A DNA stretch of 64,000 nt from Schlesneria sp. (GTDB lineage: Bacteria > Planctomycetota > Planctomycetia > Planctomycetales > Planctomycetaceae): assembly GCA_028291515.1 (NCBI GenBank), contig JAQGHU010000044.1, forward strand, positions 1-64,000. The letters are read 5' to 3'. Positions 30,101 to 45,466 of this stretch are shown in pieces. Each line of letters opens with the position of its first letter. Position 1 is the first letter of the stretch. The translations under genes were made by a program, and so were the position numbers. Under the pieces are notes generated by a model, which had not been told where the DNA came from, did not search any database, and worked only from the letters and a program-made list of their open reading frames with translations.

Positions 30101-31507
30101 CTAGTTTACAGCTGCGTTCGCGCGGCGCTGCGCACGTCTCGGATTTGCGGCGGCCTGCTTGGTGACTTCCTTGGCGTTCTGGGCCGGGAGCAACTTCGCG
30201 AGTTCGGCTTTCTTCGTTGCGTGTTCGGGGCGATTAGCCAGGTTCGTCCATTCTTTTGGATCTGCAGTCTCGTCGTAGAGTTCTTCGTCGCCGTTGGCAT
30301 AGCGGATATAGCGCCAGCCTTCCGTGCGGACGGCATGGTTGTTGAAGCCAAAGGTAGTGATCGCTGGTTGTGTCCATTCTGATTTCGGGTCAGCCAGCAG
30401 CGAACGGAGGCTCTTACCTTCGACATGCTTGGGTGTGGGAATCCCTGCGAGGTCGGTGAGTGTCGGGTAGATCGACATGAAGTCGACGGTACGGTCACTC
30501 GACGTGCCTGGCTTGGTGATGCCAGGCACGACCCAGATCAACGGGGCGCGGGTCGCTTCTTCCCACAGGGAAAATTTCCGCCAGTGCTGTTTCTCTCCAA
30601 GGTGCCAGCCGTGATCGCCCCACAGGACGATGATCGTGTTGTCTCGTTCGGGGCTCTTGTCAAGCGCGTCGAGCAGGCGACCGATCTGTCCGTCGGTGAA
30701 CGAAATGGCGGCGAGGTACGCCTGCACGGCTTCTTTCCAACGACCCGATTCCAGCATCTCTTTATGGTCGCCATCTGGTTTGGCCATTTTGATCCCGGCG
30801 GGCGGAATGTCCGCGAGGTCTTCCGGCGGTGCTTCGGGCAGCACGATTTTGTCGAGCGGGTGCAGGTCATAATACTTGCGAGGAACATTCCAAGGCATGT
30901 GTGGTTTGAACAAGCCAACCGTCAGCAGCAGTGGCTTCTCGCGTTTCTTCTGCAACTGTTCGATGCCGTAGTTCACGACCTTCCACTCACGCAGATCTTC
31001 GTCCTTGCAGTCGAGTGGTGCGAACTTGATTCCTCCGACGCCAGTGTCCCCAGTTGGAACTGGATCTTTGCCAGGGCTGGCGAGAAAGTCGTCCCATTCG
31101 GATCGTCGAGCGAAACTCTCGTGATAGATCTTTCCTGCGCCAACGACATTGTAGCCCGCCTTGCGGAACGTCGTCGTCAGGGGCAAGTCTTCGGAAATCG
31201 TCGGCCGCCAGTCGTTGTTGTTCGTATAGACTCCACTGGTTGACGGCCGCAAGCCAGTCATCAGCGATGTACGTGACGGATTGCAGAGTGGTGCAGCGCA
31301 GTAAGCCCGGTTGAACTTCATGCCGCGAGCGGCCAGTCGATCGAGATTGGGAGTAATCGTCTGCGCATTGCCATCGAGGAAGCCGACCCAGTCGTTCAGG
31401 TCGTCCACAGCAATGAACAGCACGTTCGGCTTCTTCCCCTCAGCGGCATCCACCACCGAGACCATCAACAGCAGAATCATGCCGAGAGTTTGCAGAGGTC
31501 GTATCAT
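30101..31507 (-). CDS. Exported sulfatase, iduronate-2-sulfatase type (formylglycine-dependent)
   Basis: 468 residues from ATG 31507, with signal peptide MIRPLQTLGMILLLMVSVVD; the extra 20 codons upstream are not needed. Type-I sulfatase motif CNPSRTSLMTG at 75-85, whose Cys75 is converted to formylglycine. Metal-binding residues in VLFIAVDDLNDW (Asp-Asp), GDHGWHLGE and KPHMPWNVP. The C-terminal subdomain contains YIRYANGDEELYDETADPKE, typical of choline- and iduronate-sulfatase relatives. It acts outside the cytoplasm on sulfated glycans or steroids; the natural substrate is unknown. Planctomycetes carry many such genes. A distinct sulfatase-modifying enzyme is not in this window. Confidence 0.94.
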   Translation of the reverse strand: MIRPLQTLGMILLLMVSVVDAAEGKKPNVLFIAVDDLNDWVGFLDGNAQTITPNLDRLAARGMKFNRAYCAAPLCNPSRTSLMTGLRPSTSGVYTNNNDWRPTISEDLPLTTTFRKAGYNVVGAGKIYHESFARRSEWDDFLASPGKDPVPTGDTGVGGIKFAPLDCKDEDLREWKVVNYGIEQLQKKREKPLLLTVGLFKPHMPWNVPRKYYDLHPLDKIVLPEAPPEDLADIPPAGIKMAKPDGDHKEMLESGRWKEAVQAYLAAISFTDGQIGRLLDALDKSPERDNTIIVLWGDHGWHLGEKQHWRKFSLWEEATRAPLIWVVPGITKPGTSSDRTVDFMSIYPTLTDLAGIPTPKHVEGKSLRSLLADPKSEWTQPAITTFGFNNHAVRTEGWRYIRYANGDEELYDETADPKEWTNLANRPEHATKKAELAKLLPAQNAKEVTKQAAANPRRAQRRANAAVN

Positions 31508-31796
31508 CGAAATGTTCCGTGGATGATTGATTGTTTTGGTTTGAACAGTTGGCGGAGCAGGGGGCAATCACTTCTTATGAGTTGCCGCTCCGCGCTAATT
31601 GTAACTTGAGACAGGGCGACTTCGGGACCGTCCTCGCAAATGGGGAGAGCCGTTTCGGCGAATAGACTGCTGCCAGATGTCTGGTCAGGATCCACTTCGA
31701 ATGAAGAAGGCTCGGATTAATCCGTCACCACGATAAACCGGCTGCAATAGTCATTTGACCCGCTGTGATTGTCAACGGTTCCCCGCGGCCCGCACC

Positions 31797-32204: not shown

Positions 32205-32530
32205 TAGTAATCACTCCACTCGGCGTTCCCAAAGGCGACAATTGCCGGGATTTGATCTGCGGTCGCAGCACGATTGTAACGTATTCCCATCGGCCACTCT
32301 TGGAGATCGTGAGAGCGATCGATCGCGGGCGAACTGGAAGTGGAACGGCCGATTGACTTCGAAGGGTTAGATGCTGTGCCATATCGCCATATTCCGTGGT
32401 TCGCCTAGGTTTCCTGTTCGTGCAGATTCGCGAGATTCGTGGTTACCGCATTCGGAGCGAATTTCCTTCTGGTCGCTCACACAGTAGTCTGCCTGTCCGG
32501 TACTGATCAGTTCTTCAAGGAGTCCAACTT
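32205..32530. other. Promoter region of the oxidoreductase/sulfotransferase cluster
   Basis: 326 bases upstream of the iorB-like gene. AAGGAG at 32516-32521 precedes its GTG start by nine bases. A short dispersed motif (TTCGTGCAGATTCGCGAGATTCGTGGT, key part TTCGTGCAGATTCG) lies at ~32416-32442 and again at ~57546-57572. No clear -35/-10 pair. Confidence 0.5.
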
Positions 32531-33148
32531 GTGACCCTCGAAAATAGTAAGACGACAACAACCTTGATTGCGGGATTGGGCGGTCAGGGGGTCGTTCTGG
32601 CAAGTGGGGTGCTGGCTCAAGCAGCTCTGCTGGCGGGTTATGATGTCTGCCAGAGTGAGATGCATGGTCTAAGCCAGCGATTTGGCAGCGTCTCATGCCA
32701 GGTGCGTCTGGGAACGGGGCTCTATTCTACACATCGTGGCCATAAGGCGGTGGATCTGCTGCTGTCGCTGGAAGGGTTTGAGGCGTTCAAGCAGTTGCCG
32801 TTCCTGCGTCCCGATGGGATCGCTCTGGCCAATCGACTTTGGCGCAAGCCTACGGTTGCCAAGCCACCTACGGCGGCATCGCCGGCGTCGACATCCTCTC
32901 CAGCGCAACTGAATGACCCCCGGATCAGTTGGTTTCCGGGGACCGAGGCGACTGGGCAGGCCAATTGTCCGCGAAGTCTGAATTTCTACATGCTCGGGGT
33001 GCTATCGACGCGAATGGAAATCGATGATATGTACTGGCAGGAAGCCATCGAATCATCGACGTCGAGCCGTGGAAGGAATGTCAATCACGAGATGTTCGCT
33101 ACGGGTCGACAAGTGGCAATACGATCGGAGGCGTGTCGATCGCTTTAA
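32531..33148 (+). CDS. Indolepyruvate:ferredoxin oxidoreductase, beta subunit-like (2-oxoacid oxidoreductase gamma domain)
   Basis: 205 residues from GTG 32531 (AAGGAG upstream). The N-terminus LIAGLGGQGVVLASGVLAQA and SEMHGLSQRFGSVSCQVRLG are standard motifs of the IorB/PorG domain, which docks onto the TPP subunit. The matching alpha subunit is encoded three genes downstream (35512). Together they oxidatively decarboxylate arylpyruvates (from Trp, Phe, Tyr) to arylacetyl-CoA with reduction of ferredoxin. The last ~30 residues (ATGRQVAIRSEACRSL) are less conserved. First gene of a five-gene cluster. Confidence 0.87.
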   Translation: MTLENSKTTTTLIAGLGGQGVVLASGVLAQAALLAGYDVCQSEMHGLSQRFGSVSCQVRLGTGLYSTHRGHKAVDLLLSLEGFEAFKQLPFLRPDGIALANRLWRKPTVAKPPTAASPASTSSPAQLNDPRISWFPGTEATGQANCPRSLNFYMLGVLSTRMEIDDMYWQEAIESSTSSRGRNVNHEMFATGRQVAIRSEACRSL

Positions 33149-33235
33149 TCGTATTTCAGAGCGGATGAACAGGATGTCGCCGCGCTGATTCAGAAAGGTT
33201 ACGGATATCCTGCAAGTAGAAGCCTACGGTGAACA

Positions 33236-34453
33236 ATGAGGGTGGAATCCCGACAAGAGAAATACGGCTCATCGCAGGGAATTTTCAGTATTTGGCAGGG
33301 GATGGATATCCCTAACTGGTGCCGCCTGCTAGCGGGTGTGCCACCCATTCATTGGACGCAGGCTTTGCGGCTGGCGCTCGTGTCGGGGATGAGTGTCAGC
33401 AATTCCGTCTTCAAAGTGATCGAGCATCTCGTGCATGGTGCTGAACTGAAGCGGTATGAACTCCAGAATCCTCCTGTGTTCATCCTGGGGCATTGGCGCA
33501 GTGGCACGACGCTGCTGCACGAGTTGCTTTCCAATGATCCACGGATGATCTGCCCGAATCTGTATCAAATCCTGTCGCCACATCACTGCCTGTTGACCGA
33601 GCCTGTGGTGGCCCCCCTGACGGGATGGATTCTGCCCAAGACGCGGCCGATGGACAACATGCGCATCAGTTGGGACGCGCCGCAGGAAGATGAGACGGCC
33701 CTTTGCAATCTGACAGGACTATCACCGTACATGATGCTGGCCTATCAGGGACAGCGCTGGAAGTACGAGCGATTCTTTGAACTGCAGGATTTGACTCCAC
33801 CAGAGAAACAACGCTGGACGACAGCCTTCACCACATTTCTGAAGAAGGTGGCCCTGCGTCACGAGAAGAAGTTAGGCGCACCACTGCCGGGACAGCGGAT
33901 GTTGCTGAAGTCGCCGACACACACGTACCGAATCCGCTTGTTACTGGAACTGTTTCCCGATGCCCAGTTCATTCACATCGTGCGGAACCCGTATGATGTC
34001 TTTAATTCGGCAATGCATCTGAGAGACCGGTTGTTCGAGTCGAATGCCTTGGGAGTTCCGCGGCACGAAGGTGCGGAAGAAGATGTTTGCACGATGTACG
34101 ACCATCTGTTCAAAGTCTTCGAAGCAGGCCGGCACTTGGTGGCTCCGAAACAGTTTCATGAACTGAAATACGAAGCCCTGGAGCAGGATCCTGTTGGGGA
34201 ACTCGAGAAGATTTATACCCGGTTTGGTTTCGGTGATTTCGAAGCATTGAGAATAAAACTGGACGGTCAACTCGATTTGCACCGCCAATTCCGTAAGAAT
34301 CGGTTTGATATGGCGGAAGAGACCAAGCAGCGGATCTACGATCGCTGGCAGTCGGTCTTCGAACGTTATGATTATCCGAGTGGGCTCGCGGGGGCTCCGC
34401 AGGTGGTCCAGGCACCGCATCTGAATCGGTCTCGGTCTACGAAGCACTACTAG
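33236..34453 (+). CDS. PAPS-dependent sulfotransferase
   Basis: 405 residues. The 5'-phosphosulfate loop is FILGHWRSGTTLLHELL (82-98) and the 3'-phosphate motif is FIHIVRNPYDVFNSAMHL at about 245-262. KSPTHTYRIRLLLELF lies between them and RDRLFE follows. This is the Sulfotransferase_3-like family, which transfers sulfate from PAPS to hydroxyl or amino groups of small molecules or lipids. No signal peptide, so it is cytosolic. Its stop (TAG 34451-34453) overlaps the GTG of the acyltransferase gene by one base, so expression is coupled. Confidence 0.9.
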   Translation: MRVESRQEKYGSSQGIFSIWQGMDIPNWCRLLAGVPPIHWTQALRLALVSGMSVSNSVFKVIEHLVHGAELKRYELQNPPVFILGHWRSGTTLLHELLSNDPRMICPNLYQILSPHHCLLTEPVVAPLTGWILPKTRPMDNMRISWDAPQEDETALCNLTGLSPYMMLAYQGQRWKYERFFELQDLTPPEKQRWTTAFTTFLKKVALRHEKKLGAPLPGQRMLLKSPTHTYRIRLLLELFPDAQFIHIVRNPYDVFNSAMHLRDRLFESNALGVPRHEGAEEDVCTMYDHLFKVFEAGRHLVAPKQFHELKYEALEQDPVGELEKIYTRFGFGDFEALRIKLDGQLDLHRQFRKNRFDMAEETKQRIYDRWQSVFERYDYPSGLAGAPQVVQAPHLNRSRSTKHY

Positions 34454-35481
34454 TGGGACACGGTGTCCTAGCAGGTTTGAAGCAACACGAGATGTTGCGG
34501 CAGGAGCAACTCGCTGGAATGTCCGAAGGTTTATGGTTCGAGTCTGCCCAAGCACCGGGAGCAGAGTGCGGCGACACTTTGTCGCACATGAATTGGTTGT
34601 TTCCTGGTCTGGGATGTCGCTATGTCGGAATGGGACATGATCTATTCGATCGACCTGGGATCGCTGGAAAGCTGATTCGCCAGGCTGAAGAGGCGCTCGG
34701 CTATCCACTGGCTCCCGTTTGCCTCGAGGGTTCCGGTCGCAAGATTGTCTCGCCGCGTCAAGAAGCTCAGGCGATCTATGTGATCAATTGCGCCTATGCG
34801 GCGGCGCTGCGAGAGCACGGACATTTTCCAAACGCGGTGTTGGGTCATAGCTTGGGAACCTGGTCTGCAGCCTGGGTCGCAGGCGTCTACGATTTTCTGA
34901 CTGGCTTGGAACTGATTACGCATGTGGAACTGCTGTTAGAAGAACTGGCGGATGGCCACGATCTGGCTATGGGAGCGATCATCGGGCTCGATGAGGTGAC
35001 GGTTGAAGATGCGCTGACCGCGAAGAGTGGAATCACAATAGCGAACTTCAATTCACCGGCTCAGTTTGTCATTGGCGGGCCGGGCAAAGACGTGGACGAC
35101 GTGTTACACGCGGCCTTGGTCCGTGGTGCAAAACAGGCTAAGCGACTACCCACCGGTCGGGCCATCCATACCCCCTGGATGCAAGAGGTCGCCAACAAGC
35201 TTAAGCTACGGCTGGATCAGGTATCCTGGTCGGACCCGAAGGTCCCATTTGTGGCATGCGACTGCGCAAACAAGTTGGGCACCGCCACAGAAGTCCATCG
35301 CTTTTTCTCAATTTTTCTGGCGCAGCCCGTGCGGTGGCAACAGAGCTTTTGTACCCTCAGTGGTGTTAACACGTCTCCGTTTTTGGAAGTGGGACCTGGC
35401 ACACTGCTGAAGACCCTTGCCTGGTTCATCGATTCGTCCGTCGTGGTACGCAGTGCCACCGACTGCCTCGAAGTTGCGTAG
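34453..35481 (+). CDS. FabD/AT-like acyltransferase lacking the malonate-binding arginine
   Basis: 342 residues from GTG 34453, overlapping the sulfotransferase stop; ATG 34492 is an alternative, since the family domain begins at MNWLFPGLGCRYVGMG (residue 46). Nucleophile elbow GHSLG (131-135, Ser133) and catalytic His in TGRAIHTPWM (His239) are present, with IIGLDE and ANFNSPAQFVIGGP as in FabD. Aligned to E. coli FabD, Arg117 (MRGKFM), which binds the malonyl carboxylate, is replaced by Val158 (ITHVELLLEE). The Gln of PGQGSQ is Leu. The enzyme should thus prefer an uncharged acyl group. Substrate inferred from context: the arylacetyl thioester made by the IorAB-like proteins. Confidence 0.88.
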   Translation: MGHGVLAGLKQHEMLRQEQLAGMSEGLWFESAQAPGAECGDTLSHMNWLFPGLGCRYVGMGHDLFDRPGIAGKLIRQAEEALGYPLAPVCLEGSGRKIVSPRQEAQAIYVINCAYAAALREHGHFPNAVLGHSLGTWSAAWVAGVYDFLTGLELITHVELLLEELADGHDLAMGAIIGLDEVTVEDALTAKSGITIANFNSPAQFVIGGPGKDVDDVLHAALVRGAKQAKRLPTGRAIHTPWMQEVANKLKLRLDQVSWSDPKVPFVACDCANKLGTATEVHRFFSIFLAQPVRWQQSFCTLSGVNTSPFLEVGPGTLLKTLAWFIDSSVVVRSATDCLEVA

Positions 35482-35511
35482 TGTAACTTTCTCCGATTGG
35501 ATTCGGTGACA

Positions 35512-37383
35512 ATGACGTCGAGTGACTCTCAAACCTCTTCGCCTCCTTTCAGTCCAATCACCAGCAAGCGAGTTCTGCTCTCCGGCAATCAAGCGGTTGC
35601 ACGAGGAGGGTACGAATGTGGTGTCACCGTGGCAACAAGCTATCCCGGGACCCCCTGCACGGAGATTTTGGAGACACTCGCCACCTATGATTCGATCAAG
35701 GCGATGTGGTCCGCAAATGAGAAGGTCGCGCTGGAGACGGCGCTGGGGGCCGCATTTGCCGGGGCTCGAGCCCTGGTGTCGATGAAGCATGTTGGACTGA
35801 ATGTCGCCGCAGATCCGCTGTTCTCGTCAGCCTATACTGGCATCAATGGTGGGTTAGTCATCGTCGTCGGCGACGATCCTTCGGCCAACAGTTCGCAGAA
35901 CGAGCAAGACAGTCGGCACTACGCACGGGCCGCGAAGCTACCGATGCTGGAGCCGTCGAACAGCCAGGAGATCAAAGATCTGATGGCTTATGCGTTCGAA
36001 CTGAGTGAACAGTTCGATACACCGGTAATCCTCCGATTGACGACGCGCCTCTGTCATTCGAAGACCGTTGTCAGGCTGGGGACGCCACCAAAGAATCCAA
36101 GGGGCGCCAGCGGGTTCGTTCGCGACTTCGACAAGTTCGTGCTGCTGCCACGGCAAGCGCTGCTCAGACACTCGGTAATTGAAAACCGCCTGCTGGCACT
36201 CGCAGAGAATGCCGAGAAGCTGCCTTTCAACGTCACCGAGATCCGAGATCGCGACTTGGGAATTGTGACAGCGGGGATGGCCTATAACTATGTGCGGGAA
36301 GCGTTCCCTGACGCGTCCATCTTGAAGCTCGCACAGACGTTTCCGTTGCCTGCCAAACTGATTAGGGAATTCGCCACTGAAGTGAATCGCTTGCTGGTGA
36401 TCGAGGAATTAGACCCATTCCTCGACGAACAGATTCGGGCTTTGGGTGTCACTGTCGAACAAGCCGATTGGTTGCCTCGAGTTGGTGAGCTCTCGCCCGA
36501 GCGGATCGAACGCAGCCTGGCTCGTGGAACGCCACAGCCGCTCGAAAAAGGCGACGAAGCGATTCCGCCGCGGGCTCCTCGCATTTGCGCTGGCTGCCAG
36601 TATCTGGGCGTCTATACCGCGATTGCTCGTCTGGGCGTCACCGTGGCCGGGGATATCGGCTGTTACACGCTGGGTTCGCTCTCGCCCTGGAATGCGATCG
36701 ACACCGTCGTCTGCATGGGGGCCAGCATCGGCACGGCCTTGGGCATGGAGAAGGCTCTGGGAGAAGAGTCGCACGGCAAGGTTCTGGCGATTATCGGCGA
36801 CGGGACGCTGCTTCATTCCGGACTGGCGCCACTGTTGGACTTCGTCCACAACGGCGGTCGAGGGACGATCCTGATCATGGATAATTCCACGACAGCGATG
36901 ACCGGATTGCAGGGTCACTCGGGCAATGGGAAGCTCGCTCAAGGCGAGAACTCGGCGGGCCATGGAATCGATCTGGAGAAGCTCGTTCGGGCGCTGGGTG
37001 TCGAATGGGTGCGCGTGGCCGATCCCTATAACCTAGAAGAGACCGAAGCGATATTGCGAGAAGCCTTGGACTACGCCGGGCCGGCCGTGGTCATTAGTCG
37101 AGCCCCTTGCCTGCTGATCAAGCCCAAGCCGCCTGTGCAGCGGGCTCAATGGAACGCCGAAGCTTGCACCGGATGTGGTGACTGCTTCGAGGTCGGTTGT
37201 GTTGCGATTGAACCGCAGGAATTCCAAGGGCGATACGCCCCCAAGATCAGTCAGGATCTTTGCGTGGGCTGCACCCTGTGCGTTCAGGTCTGCCCCGAGG
37301 GTGCTCTCAAGCCGCGTCCTGTGAGTGGTGATCTGATCGAGTTGGGAATGTGGAAGCCGCAAGCCCAGCCGATGTCGCGCTGA
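35512..37383 (+). CDS. Indolepyruvate:ferredoxin oxidoreductase, alpha subunit
   Basis: 623 residues from ATG 35512 (TTG 35497 is a weaker start). Order: pyrimidine-binding domain (GVTVATSYPGTPCTEILETL, EKVALETALGAAFAGARALV), linking domain, TPP domain with GDIGCYTLG and GDGTLLHSGL (427-436) through MDNSTTAMTGLQGH, and a C-terminal ferredoxin part with CTGCGDCFEVGC and CVGCTLCVQVCP for two [4Fe-4S] clusters. Full length for IorA. It catalyses oxidative decarboxylation of arylpyruvates to arylacetyl-CoA. Unlike the usual adjacent iorAB, its beta subunit is separated by a sulfotransferase and an acyltransferase gene. Confidence 0.94.
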   Translation: MTSSDSQTSSPPFSPITSKRVLLSGNQAVARGGYECGVTVATSYPGTPCTEILETLATYDSIKAMWSANEKVALETALGAAFAGARALVSMKHVGLNVAADPLFSSAYTGINGGLVIVVGDDPSANSSQNEQDSRHYARAAKLPMLEPSNSQEIKDLMAYAFELSEQFDTPVILRLTTRLCHSKTVVRLGTPPKNPRGASGFVRDFDKFVLLPRQALLRHSVIENRLLALAENAEKLPFNVTEIRDRDLGIVTAGMAYNYVREAFPDASILKLAQTFPLPAKLIREFATEVNRLLVIEELDPFLDEQIRALGVTVEQADWLPRVGELSPERIERSLARGTPQPLEKGDEAIPPRAPRICAGCQYLGVYTAIARLGVTVAGDIGCYTLGSLSPWNAIDTVVCMGASIGTALGMEKALGEESHGKVLAIIGDGTLLHSGLAPLLDFVHNGGRGTILIMDNSTTAMTGLQGHSGNGKLAQGENSAGHGIDLEKLVRALGVEWVRVADPYNLEETEAILREALDYAGPAVVISRAPCLLIKPKPPVQRAQWNAEACTGCGDCFEVGCVAIEPQEFQGRYAPKISQDLCVGCTLCVQVCPEGALKPRPVSGDLIELGMWKPQAQPMSR

Positions 37384-37405
37384 GGCTGGTCAGAACGAGA
37401 ATGTC

Positions 37406-38530
37406 ATGAAATATCTGTTGTTAACCGGTGCGACGGGCCTTGTCGGGCGCTATCTGCTACGCGACCTCTTGCAGCGCGGCCATGCGGTTGCCGTTATCGT
37501 TCGTAGCGATGGCGAACAAACTGCCGCCGATCGCATTGAAGAAATCGTGCGCATGTGGGACCAGCGCGGCGAAGTCACCTTGCCGCGGCCGATCTGTCTG
37601 GAAGGGGATGTTACGGCTGCTGGCCTTGGCCTGAACGACGAAGGTCGAGCATGGGTTGCCGAGCACTGCGACACCATGATTCATAACGCCGCTTCACTGA
37701 CGTTCCGCGGTGCGGATCGAGCCGGAGAACCCTGGCGTACAAATCTCGGCGGCACTCGCTATGTGATCGAATTCTGTCGCGACGTTGGTATTCGCAAGTT
37801 CCACTACGTCTCAACCGCTTATGTCTGCGGCAACCGCGAAGGGGTCATCCTCGAAGACGAATTGGATGCGGGGCAGGAGTTCCGCAACGAGTACGAACAG
37901 AGCAAGTTCCTGGCGGAGCAATTGGTACGCAACTCTGATTGCCTCGACACTCCGACCGTCTATCGGCCTGCGGTGATCGTCGGCGATTCAGTGACGGGAT
38001 ATACGAACACGTATCACGGTCTCCTTCATCATTTGAAGTTCATGGCGGTCCTGTTCAAGAACATGGAGCCTGGCCCGGATGGCAGGCGTCATGTGCCTCT
38101 ACGCCTGAACATGACCGGTGACGAGCAACGGAACATGGTGACGGTCGATTGGGTCTCGGCCGTGATGGTTCGCCTGTACGAGACGCAGGCTGCCCATGGC
38201 GGGACCTATCATTTGTCGCCAACGCATCCGATGACGCCTCGTGATTTGATCAAGGCTGTGGAAAGCTACTTCCATGTCTATGGAGCCGAGTTCGTCGGTC
38301 CGCTGGCCGCCAGTGAACGGAACGACGCGGAACAGAAGGCCGACGAATCGCTCGATCTGTACGAATCGTACGCCACGACCGACCCAACCTTCGACATCAC
38401 CAACATGCTGCGATTCGCAGGCGACATCGTTTGCCCTCGCGTCGACGAAGCCCTGATCCACCGCTTCATCGACTTTGGAGATGCCGACAAATGGGGCAAA
38501 CGCCCCCGTAAGAAGCCACGTCCCGTGTAG
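37406..38530 (+). CDS. Thioester-reductase-like NAD(P)-dependent dehydrogenase (extended SDR)
   Basis: 374 residues; starts 22 bases after the oxidoreductase. Rossmann loop LLTGATGLVGRYLLRDLLQR at 4-23, DTMIHNAASLTF, NLGGTRYVIEFCRDVGIRKF, HYVSTAYVCG and the active-site YEQSKFLAEQLV (Tyr and Lys) place it in the NAD_binding_4 group (Lys2-type reductase domains, fatty-acyl reductases). These enzymes reduce acyl-thioesters to aldehydes or alcohols. The C-terminal ~120 residues are less conserved, with a basic tail (KRPRKKPRPV). Last gene of the cluster; an aldehyde- or alcohol-forming step is the natural inference. Confidence 0.83.
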   Translation: MKYLLLTGATGLVGRYLLRDLLQRGHAVAVIVRSDGEQTAADRIEEIVRMWDQRGEVTLPRPICLEGDVTAAGLGLNDEGRAWVAEHCDTMIHNAASLTFRGADRAGEPWRTNLGGTRYVIEFCRDVGIRKFHYVSTAYVCGNREGVILEDELDAGQEFRNEYEQSKFLAEQLVRNSDCLDTPTVYRPAVIVGDSVTGYTNTYHGLLHHLKFMAVLFKNMEPGPDGRRHVPLRLNMTGDEQRNMVTVDWVSAVMVRLYETQAAHGGTYHLSPTHPMTPRDLIKAVESYFHVYGAEFVGPLAASERNDAEQKADESLDLYESYATTDPTFDITNMLRFAGDIVCPRVDEALIHRFIDFGDADKWGKRPRKKPRPV

Positions 38531-41113: not shown

Positions 41114-41307
41114 TTCCGACCAGTGATCACTAAATGACGCGATCGAATGAAGACGCAGAACAGTGGCCAGTTTGACGGCAAGAGGAAAATTGAACTCAGC
41201 AGCGCCCATTAGACGAATGCGTTGCGGATACGTTCTCTCAGATCCCGAACCAGTTGAGCTTCTGGGTTTCGCCTCTTCCGAACGCGCAATCCTTACTGTG
41301 ATAAAGA

Positions 41308-41345
41308 CAAACAGCCCTTTACCGAGATCGGTAAAGGGCTGTTTG
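41308..41345 (-). terminator. Rho-independent-like terminator of the initiator tRNA
   Basis: A 16-base perfect stem, CAAACAGCCCTTTACC (41308-41323) and GGTAAAGGGCTGTTTG (41330-41345), with a six-base loop. It lies ten bases beyond the tRNA 3' end in its direction of transcription and is followed on that strand by TCTTTAT. Confidence 0.8.
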
Positions 41346-41354
41346 TTCTTCAAG

Positions 41355-41428
<74 letters not shown>

Positions 41429-41573
41429 TCAGGGTGTTCCTCTTTGTGGGAGGAGACAAGTAGTATATCGGCCACTCTTGGGAAGGGAAGGGAGTCGAGT
41501 TGCGTTTTTCGGAAATCGAGACATGCTAAATGGATACAGCGTCCCATTTCTCGGCACAGGTGAGACAACCGGA

Positions 41574-42251
41574 ATGAAAAATAGAGCGATCAAGACGGCT
41601 TTAGCGGTGTGGGTATTGGGTTTGTGCGCTGTCCTTCCTGCGCAAGACGCGAAGCCGGCAGTGGATAAGTGGGAAGCCGAGATTCGGAAGTTTGAGGAGG
41701 CAGATCAGAAGTCGCCTCCGGCCGAAGGGGCGAATGCCTTTATTGGTAGCTCCAGCATCCGGATGTGGAAGCTGGGGAGTTCGTTTCCGAATCGTAGTTG
41801 TCTCAACCGCGGTTTTGGCGGATCGGAGATGGCTGATTCGGCTCGATATGTCGATCGGATCGTACTTTCAGCGAAGCCGAAGGTGATCGTCCTGTATGCG
41901 GGCGATAATGACATCGCGAACAAGAACAGGCCGACTCAGGTACGAGATGGATACCGAATCTTCCGCGACAAGGTGCAGGCCACATTGCCAGAGACAGTGA
42001 TTGTGTTGATCGGCCTGAAGCCAAGTCCCAGTCGGTGGAAACTACGCGAGGCGGCATTGGAGGCAAATCAGCTACTGCGAGCGGAAGTGATGGCGGGGAC
42101 GAATCAGACGTTTGTGGATGTCTGGCCGGCGATGCTCGGCGAAGACGGGATGCCCAATCCCGAACTGTTCCAGAAAGACAACCTGCACATGACCGATGCG
42201 GGGTATCGGATCTGGAACGAACTGATCGAACCGCATCTGGTTGGGAAATGA
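41574..42251 (+). CDS. Exported SGNH/GDSL hydrolase
   Basis: 225 residues from ATG 41574. The signal peptide MKNRAIKTALAVWVLGLCAV precedes LPAQ; upstream in-frame sequence to 41163 spans the tRNA on the other strand and is rejected. SGNH blocks: GSSSIRMW (block I, nucleophile Ser), NRGFGGSEM (block II Gly), YAGDNDIANKNRP (block III Asn) and DNLHMTDAGY (block V Asp-His). This subgroup resembles PAF-acetylhydrolase-like and carbohydrate-esterase-like exported enzymes; substrate unknown. Confidence 0.88.
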   Translation: MKNRAIKTALAVWVLGLCAVLPAQDAKPAVDKWEAEIRKFEEADQKSPPAEGANAFIGSSSIRMWKLGSSFPNRSCLNRGFGGSEMADSARYVDRIVLSAKPKVIVLYAGDNDIANKNRPTQVRDGYRIFRDKVQATLPETVIVLIGLKPSPSRWKLREAALEANQLLRAEVMAGTNQTFVDVWPAMLGEDGMPNPELFQKDNLHMTDAGYRIWNELIEPHLVGK

Positions 42252-43975: not shown

Positions 43976-45466
43976 CTAGTTCAAGAGACCGAGCAGGGTG
44001 GACATGCGGCTTGGGCGGCTGTTGGAAGCCTTCTTCTCTTCTGGTGGAACTGGAGCAGGAGCGGCGTTGTCATTCATTGGGGCAACTGCTGGGCCACCGG
44101 CTGGGGCACAGCCATTGCTGCAGCCAGTCGAGCAACCAGCGGTCGTGCAACCTTTGTCGCAGCAACCCTTAACAACGTCGTATCCACACAGGCGGAGAGC
44201 CTGTTCAGCTTGACGAACCACACCACGATCACAGTCACCCAGAGCACAGGTCAGGGCGGCGGTGACTTCGGGGCAGCAGCAGCAGTTCTTGCGAACTTGA
44301 TCGCCGATTTCATCGGCAGCTTCACGTCGGACGCGTTCATCAGCATCATTCAGAGCGTAGACGAAGGCCGTCATGATCTCTGGATTGCAGATGCAATCAT
44401 AACGATTGCCCAGCTTGCGGATGGCAGCACGTCGTTGACGAGCGTAGCAGGCGGTTTGCGATGTGTAGATCAACTGAGCAATTGCACAGGGATCAGCACA
44501 GCACTTTGGCGTGCAGCTAGTCGTGCAGCTGGCTGGAGCGGCACACGCTGGTGCAGCACAAGCTGGAGCGGCACAGGCAGGAGCACATGTTGACGAGCAA
44601 CATGACTTCTTGAAGCAGGACTTGCCGAACAAGCCATGCAGACCCTTGAAGCAGCAACCCTTTGTACCACAGCCCGTTGAGCAGCAGCCGGTAGCGGCTG
44701 GAGCGGAACAAGCTGGAGCACAGGCAGCGGCTGGAGCGGAACAAGCTGGAGCACAGGCAGCGGCTGGAGCAGCACAACCAGGACCGACCGGACCGCAGTT
44801 AGCGGCTGGAGCGGCACAGGCTGGAGCACAAGCAGCTGCTGGAGCAGCACAACCAGGACCAACTGGACCACAGTTGGCAGCAGGAGCCGCACAAGCTGGA
44901 GCACAGTTAGCTGCTGGAGCGGCACAACCTGGAGCACAGGCTGGACCACAGTTCGCGGCAGGAGCGGCACAAGCTGGTGCACAGTTGGCTGCGGGAGCAG
45001 CACAACCTGGAGCACAAGCAGGACCACAGTTAGCAGCAGGAGCGGCACAAGCTGGCGCACAGGCGGCAGCAGGAGCAGCACAGGCTGGGGCACAGGCTGC
45101 TGGAGCAGCACAAGCAGGAGCACAAGCGGCAGGAGCAGCACAAGCTGGAGCACAGGCTGCAGCAGGAGCGGCACATGCTGGTGCACAGTTGCCGGCACCA
45201 GCTGGAGCACAGCAGCTCGCTGGAGCACAGCTGCTGTCGCAGCATGGTGGCTTGATGTCCGAACATCGTCGTTGATAAGTATGGACCGTTGGGCAACAAG
45301 GCTTCACGATCACCGGTCGGCAACAAGCCGGCGTGCACGAAGACGTGCAACAGCTGGCTTTCGAGGCGCCGCAGCACCCCGAATTGCCATGTAACCACCC
45401 GGCTTCAGCCAGGCTGGCCATGCTCATCGCAGCGAGCACAGCCCCAGACATCTTGATCCATCGCAT
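43976..45466 (-). CDS. Exported Cys/Ala/Pro-repeat protein with C-terminal HEAT-like region
   Basis: 496 residues. AAGGAGA upstream of ATG 45466; signal peptide [20 protein letters not shown] with cleavage after AEA. A Cys-rich head ([15 protein letters not shown]) leads to a ~220-residue tract of the unit [10 protein letters not shown] and variants [10 protein letters not shown]. Next come [17 protein letters not shown], a second short Cys/Pro tract, and a ~110-residue helical part ([50 protein letters not shown]) reading like HEAT/PBS repeats with added cysteines. Planctomycete walls are protein-rich with cystine bridges, so a structural wall role is attractive, but it is inferred. Strong own terminator and no operon partner suggest high expression. 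Confidence 0.78.
44690..45215 (-). repeat. Coding minisatellite in the Cys/Pro-repeat gene
   Basis: About 520 bases of degenerate 12-33-base units built on GCTGGAGCGGCACAAGC. Some 60-90-base blocks recur almost unchanged (for example at ~44760-44840 and ~44840-44930), showing recent duplication. Each encodes [14 protein letters not shown] sequence. Confidence 0.85.

Follow-up and report, generated by a model that had tools for sequence, protein, structure and literature searches.

A FabD-like acyltransferase with an altered pocket co-occurs with an IorAB-type oxidoreductase in planctomycete gene clusters

The two-subunit oxidoreductase IorAB requires a partner that takes up its acyl-coenzyme A (acyl-CoA). 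Among FabD-fold enzymes, an active-site Arg is required for malonyl substrates, and its absence is diagnostic of the acyl hydrolases of trans-acyltransferase (trans-AT) polyketide synthases (PKSs); according to the accessible part of the same account, these hydrolases usually have Gln or His at the Arg position, Gln12 (position 12 being Gln or His) and Phe200 are strictly conserved, and GHSL is the transferase (AT-like) form of the nucleophile motif (PMC11775670). Another FabD relative, ZhuC, is required when the R1128 PKS is primed with non-acetate units, and in the portion of that report available its authors call the role unclear (PMC340942). Here, we describe a gene cluster in which a FabD-like acyltransferase (AT) lies with genes for an IorAB-type enzyme, a sulfotransferase and a stand-alone thioester reductase-like protein. 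It is located in a 64,000-nucleotide stretch of Schlesneria sp. (assembly GCA_028291515.1, contig JAQGHU010000044.1, positions 1 to 64,000 of the forward strand), which we refer to as the window.

We analyzed the distribution of the AT and IorA in 170 Pirellulaceae genomes from 58 genera. The AT search identified 13 genomes in six of the 58 genera, and an independent IorA search of the same set returned the identical 13, with no discordant genome. Because the separate IorA search gave the same 13 of 170, the AT and the cluster type of IorA were never apart in these searches, and their co-occurrence exceeds chance. The link between IorAB and a FabD-like enzyme, which a sequence-only reading of the window had drawn from a single locus, thus gains strong support. 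A profile built from 11 ATs (A2) separated the same 13 genomes: full-length members scored 497–562 bits and the AT fragment of genome G491 247 bits, against 193 bits or less for every non-member. In a draw of 392 genomes across the phylum, the AT search gave seven genomes at an E-value of 1e-60 or better. The window genome (G000) and G015 exceeded 500 bits; the five others, judged by score alone, fell at 205–211 bits, about the level of the best FabD-range score in the family (193 bits).

The conserved unit consists of three genes, AT, iorA and iorB, present in all 13 cluster genomes. Their order is AT-iorA-iorB in 11 of the 13 clusters, comprising ten loci that were read and G491, whose cluster is interrupted by contig ends into pieces consistent with this order. 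In seven of the ten loci (L128–L134), the AT and iorA reading frames share 1 or 4 bases, and in the other three the starts are unfixed. The remaining two clusters, in G000 and G015, have the permuted order iorB-sulfotransferase-AT-iorA; only there are iorA and iorB separated, whereas elsewhere the two sit side by side following the AT. When the loci were read by eye, no additional gene common to all of them was found beyond AT-iorA-iorB. The conserved neighborhood on which the sequence-only reading had staked its proposal was therefore found for the three-gene core and not for the five-gene set, which occurs in one of the 13 cluster genomes, with the four-gene set in two. G015 shares the window order for four genes, with identities of 70% (iorB), 76% (sulfotransferase), 63% (AT) and 86% (IorA). 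No reductase match was found in the 19 kb read at the G015 cluster, and the best G015 homolog of the reductase lies elsewhere in that genome (691483; 46% identity). As a separate observation, an alpha/beta hydrolase gene of one family precedes the AT in G534–G536 and G491 (8357–9340 in L136 and 8180–9190 in L138; Pfam was run on two of the four), and it could be a further component of the route in these genomes.

In the window, the cluster comprises five genes on the + strand. The iorB-like gene (32531..33148; 205 amino acids; Pfam POR, 89.5 bits) begins at a GTG preceded by AAGGAG at 32517–32522, as seen in the junction bases, and is followed by the sulfotransferase (33236..34453; 405 amino acids), the AT (34453..35481; 342 amino acids; Pfam Acyl_transf_1), the iorA-like gene (35512..37383; 623 amino acids) and the thioester reductase-like gene (37406..38530; 374 amino acids; Pfam NAD_binding_4, 159.1 bits). 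The open reading frame (ORF) listing and the junction bases confirmed the five genes and the gaps of 87, −1, 30 and 22 bases reported earlier, the third of these with the ATG start of iorA at 35512 (the alternative is TTG at 35497). The −1 gap between the sulfotransferase and the AT is uncertain because it depends on the AT GTG start at 34453; AT relatives are of variable length N-terminal to a conserved WLFPG. All five Pfam assignments (POR; Sulfotransfer_3; Acyl_transf_1; POR_N, TPP_enzyme_C and Fer4; NAD_binding_4) exceeded their curated cut-offs. Upstream of the cluster, on the opposite strand, are a sulfatase gene and a small ORF with no Pfam match; downstream, the first + strand ORF of at least 90 amino acids begins 415 bases beyond the reductase. 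Promoter and terminator scans gave nothing above chance level. The sulfatase gene (30101–31567, − strand; Pfam Sulfatase and SGSH_C), which lies close to the cluster, had no match in the G015 locus.

We compared the active sites of the 13 cluster ATs with those of 21 Pirellulaceae FabDs (20 fetched and one from locus L148). Three of the 20 fetched stretches contain one or two stop codons where the profile match overran the open frame and were kept in, and one cluster AT ends before the His239 region, leaving 12 sequences at the two positions there. The predicted nucleophile Ser133 (codon 34849..34851, + strand, as for all codons given here), in the motif GHSLG, is Ser in 13/13 ATs and 21/21 FabDs, with GHSL retained in all 13 ATs, and the catalytic His239 is likewise invariant (12/12 and 21/21). 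The surrounding pocket differs. Leu53 (34609..34611) replaces the Gln of the GQG motif (Leu in 13/13 versus Gln in 21/21), and Val158-Glu159 (34924..34929) replace the malonate Arg and the Gly that follows it, the first position being Val, Ile or Thr in 13/13 versus Arg in 21/21 and the second Glu in 13/13 versus Gly in 21/21. Ile238, encoded together with His239 at 35164..35169, replaces Phe (Met, Ile or Val in 12/12 versus Phe in 21/21). A second pocket Gln, which we take to be Gln63 in E. coli numbering, is replaced by Ala or Ser without exception relative to the 21 FabDs. Five pocket positions thus differ in every covered cluster AT from all 21 FabDs, and the absence of the malonate Arg that had been recognized in the window enzyme is borne out in all 13 cluster ATs.

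Profile comparisons and a sequence search of the PDB placed the AT near FabD and outside its curated family. It scored 187.8 bits against TIGR00128, below the cut-off of 260.9, and its best relatives in the PDB were FabD (4rr5; E-value 1.5e-35) and DisD (9.9e-34), with PksD far weaker (1.2e-12). Of the hydrolase markers given in the accessible part of PMC11775670, the absence of Arg is found in 13/13 ATs, though with Val, Ile or Thr in its place, whereas Gln12 and Phe200 are absent, replaced by Leu (13/13) and by Met, Ile or Val (12/12). Judged by these residues, the cluster AT matches neither malonyl transferases nor trans-AT acyl hydrolases in full. The pocket would suit a larger, uncharged acyl group. 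Without the Phe that precedes the catalytic His in FabD, additional room seems likely.

Pfam and NCBIfam comparison supported the oxidoreductase as an IorAB-type enzyme, in agreement with the earlier assignment. IorA contains POR_N, a TPP-binding domain and a C-terminal 4Fe-4S domain, and IorB contains the POR domain. In a quick tree of 68 sequences, 12 cluster IorAs formed one branch with a support of 100 in the SH-like approximate likelihood ratio test (SH-aLRT), and rows L003 and L004 were on very long branches. IorA matches at 1e-60 or better occurred in 69 of the 392 phylum genomes; outside the window and G015, full-length matches were about 36–50% identical, with a few fragments higher. 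An iorB gene lay near iorA in 24 of 28 phylum loci (L033–L060), and neither AT nor sulfotransferase was found in these 28 loci within flanks of only about 1.5 kb. Among 26 further IorA loci at 37–42% identity, which came from a scan with two peptide patterns that recovered no cluster member, 25 had an iorB match and none had an AT, sulfotransferase or reductase match.

Outside the cluster clade, some iorA genes lie beside genes that act on CoA esters. In a distant planctomycete (L087, 10266–12779), an acetokinase-family gene and a PTA_PTB gene precede the start of iorA at the contig end, an arrangement that probably represents keto acid fermentation with energy gain, and in L065 iorA adjoins an ADP-forming-type CoA ligase gene. 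Genome G375 carries an IorA fragment at a contig end (61–62% identical), preceded by PTA_PTB and acetokinase-family genes; the 12.8 kb covered there gave no match for the AT, the sulfotransferase or iorB. In the cluster clade the constant neighbor is the AT, which makes it the likely acceptor of the IorAB acyl group. The Paa ring-oxygenase family PF05138 was found in 0 of 17 genomes (the 13 cluster genomes and four congeners), with a control positive in four of 14; Paa catabolism is therefore an unlikely fate of the acyl-CoA.

The descent of the cluster was compared with that of one control gene, AsnS. Identity of AsnS to the window was 86–90% in five congeners, 79% in G015, 74–75% in g319, 71–72% in g311 and 68% in g321, and that of IorA was 86% in G015, 73–75% in g311, 70–71% in g321 and 67–68% in g319. 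G015 is thus nearest in both genes, but g319 ranks second for AsnS and lowest for IorA. Among 59 genomes, one of them that of the window and 58 from relatives, the close IorA (86%) was found in G015 only, and no IorA match was found in 14 congeners of the window genome. This sporadic pattern may reflect old presence followed by losses or transfer within the family.

The gene content, the AT-IorA linkage, the pocket changes and the retained Ser and His are directly established. On this basis, we tentatively propose, as a plausible but far from settled explanation, that IorAB makes an acyl-CoA whose acyl group the AT transfers to a carrier protein, the reductase and sulfotransferase being additions in the window genome; the substrate, the carrier, transfer as opposed to hydrolysis, and the product are what we infer here. 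The core would form a three-enzyme module. IorAB would use CoA and ferredoxin in the oxidative decarboxylation of a 2-oxoacid, giving an acyl-CoA, the substrate most likely being an arylpyruvate from Trp, Phe or Tyr, as its family suggests. The AT, with the carboxylate-binding Arg lost and Glu gained, would accept the acyl group on Ser133 and hand it to an acyl carrier protein (ACP), thereby connecting CoA with ACP. Genes outside the cluster may take up the product in most relatives, for instance as an unusual fatty acid or polyketide starter. In the window genome, the reductase would turn the acyl group on its carrier into an aldehyde or alcohol, and a hydroxyl would be sulfated by the sulfotransferase; a sulfated alcohol may result, a guess with modest support. 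A more ambitious form of this idea, which we regard as rather doubtful, is that a FabD relative serves as the loader of aromatic acyl groups from a ferredoxin-dependent arylpyruvate oxidoreductase, so that ACPs primed with arylacetyl groups would feed a new class of Pirellulaceae lipids or polyketides that are aryl-capped and, in this genome, reduced and sulfated; Glu159 would contact the indole NH or phenol OH.

Several findings weigh against this proposal, and some of them favor other explanations of the core. The core showed no gene for a carrier protein, and because the iorA neighbor consumes CoA esters in only two of five loci checked (L065 and L087; the neighbors in L063, L067 and L074 are unrelated), such a neighbor need not be an acyl acceptor. 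The main rival, which we consider somewhat unlikely, is that the AT hydrolyzes acyl-CoA or acyl-ACP, the core converting arylpyruvate to free arylacetate (for example, indole-3-acetate) and reduced ferredoxin with release of CoA. The missing malonate Arg is the diagnostic feature of trans-AT hydrolases in the part of PMC11775670 available, a free-acid product would need no extra gene in 11 of the 13 clusters, and other IorAs adjoin genes that take acyl-CoA to acid, as in L087 and L065. The replacement of Gln12 and Phe200 and the transferase form GHSL, as the same partial source describes them, argue against hydrolysis; moreover, it would waste a thioester that neighbors of the L087 and L065 types could conserve, and would leave the window reductase without a thioester substrate. 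Alternatively, the name IorAB may be misleading, and the acyl thioester that the module supplies for priming fatty acids or polyketides may be non-aryl (branched or short). IorA scored 647.8 bits against the TIGR03336 cut-off of 650.9, about 3 bits short over a near full-length match, and the best IorB score, 133 bits (NF005322), was about 100 bits below the cut-off of 237; because both miss their NCBIfam cut-offs, the substrate may be non-aryl, and the cluster IorAs do form their own branch. We nevertheless judge this unlikely, as IorA reached at most 128.5 bits with other 2-oxoacid families, and the loss of the Phe before the catalytic His would suggest space for a larger group.

The accessory genes call for a separate weighing. 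The sulfotransferase is present in two of the 13 clusters and the reductase in one, and the sulfated arylethanol expected by the sequence-only reading, which thus depends on one genome, is weak and unsupported as stated; overall, that reading is partly supported. It is quite possible that both genes are chance neighbors of the core belonging to unrelated pathways, as relatives of both are common in the family. They lie, however, on the same strand with short gaps, and two genera share the sulfotransferase in this position, with 76% identity. Chance neighborhood of these two genes is compatible with the core part of our proposed acyl-transfer route.

For the reductase, the comparison with the MxaA reductase (4u7w) gave 88.6 bits (E-value 3.7e-24); it scored 146.1 bits against TIGR01746, below the cut-off of 213.35, and exceeded that of Pfam NAD_binding_4. 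Homologs at 1e-25 or better occur in 34 of the 59 genomes, the window's own included, and in 13 of the 34 a FabD-size gene (4) or a long, PKS-size ORF with an AT (9) is found no more than 13 kb from a relative. Locus L143 holds a PKS with ketoacyl synthase (KS), AT, ACP, ketoreductase (KR) and dehydratase (DH) domains (KS-AT-ACP-KR-DH) beside a reductase relative, and L148 holds a KS near one; by eye, FabD, another KS and two ORFs, one ACP-like and one PlsX-like, were also recognized in L148. Since these loci hold PKSs or ketoacyl synthases near relatives, ACP-bound substrates are plausible for the reductase family. The sulfotransferase scored 121.9 bits with Pfam Sulfotransfer_3 (cut-off 27 bits). 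Its relatives at 1e-40 or better occur in 43 of the 392 phylum genomes, the next best after G015 being about 45% identical, and the window genome carries a second copy (C75) in a different context. A sulfotransferase about 43% identical, sharing an RPMDN stretch, was also observed in many Pirellulaceae genomes, and its neighbors differ among L139, L140, L141 and L142 by eye.

Two other features of the window were recorded. An ORF of 496 amino acids (43976–45466, − strand) contains long Cys/Ala/Pro-rich tandem repeats, with arrays at about 44532–45235, and a HEAT_2 match near its C-terminal part. Another ORF (41163–42251, + strand) overlaps tRNA-Met (41354–41428, − strand); the N-terminal stretch listed for this ORF probably does not represent real protein, with the actual start further downstream.

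If the proposed route is correct, the cluster AT would show the FabD fold in a new function, recognizable by a clear set of residue changes and by co-occurrence with IorAB in 13 of 170 genomes. It would also provide an entry point for studying the use of keto acids in planctomycete lipids or secondary metabolites, and would suggest a role for an aryl-type ferredoxin-linked oxidoreductase in genomes where the Paa ring-oxygenase was not found. The three-gene core is small enough for direct expression and testing.

A literature search at the level of titles and abstract openings found no relevant account of this gene set or of a link between IorA and an acyltransferase. Our results suggest that amino acids are converted to carrier-bound acids by a route that has not been described, which in this cluster is extended by a reductase and a sulfotransferase. 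The oxidoreductase resembles IorAB (TIGR03336, TIGR03334) in its POR_N, TPP_enzyme_C and C-terminal Fer4 domains and separate POR subunit, but differs in its scores under the cut-offs, its own branch and its link to the AT, and in the window iorB lies two genes away from iorA. The AT shares with the malonyl-CoA:ACP transacylase FabD (TIGR00128) the fold family, as predicted from sequence, and the catalytic Ser and His, whereas the Arg, the GQG Gln, the second Gln, the Gly and the Phe of the pocket are replaced and the score is below the cut-off. With the trans-AT PKS acyl hydrolases PksD and PedC it shares the missing malonate Arg, but it has Leu for Gln12, lacks Phe200, keeps GHSL and matches PksD less well than FabD or DisD; no trans-AT PKS was found beside the AT in the loci read. 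The reductase has the predicted NAD-binding fold of stand-alone and terminal thioester reductases (MxaA, 4u7w), but it has no adenylation or carrier domain and falls below the TIGR01746 cut-off. The nearest described idea is ZhuC, likewise a FabD relative linked to an unusual starter unit; it differs in that, as described in the available part of that report, ZhuC belongs to a type II PKS, where it acts together with an ACP and a KSIII-type enzyme (PMC340942).

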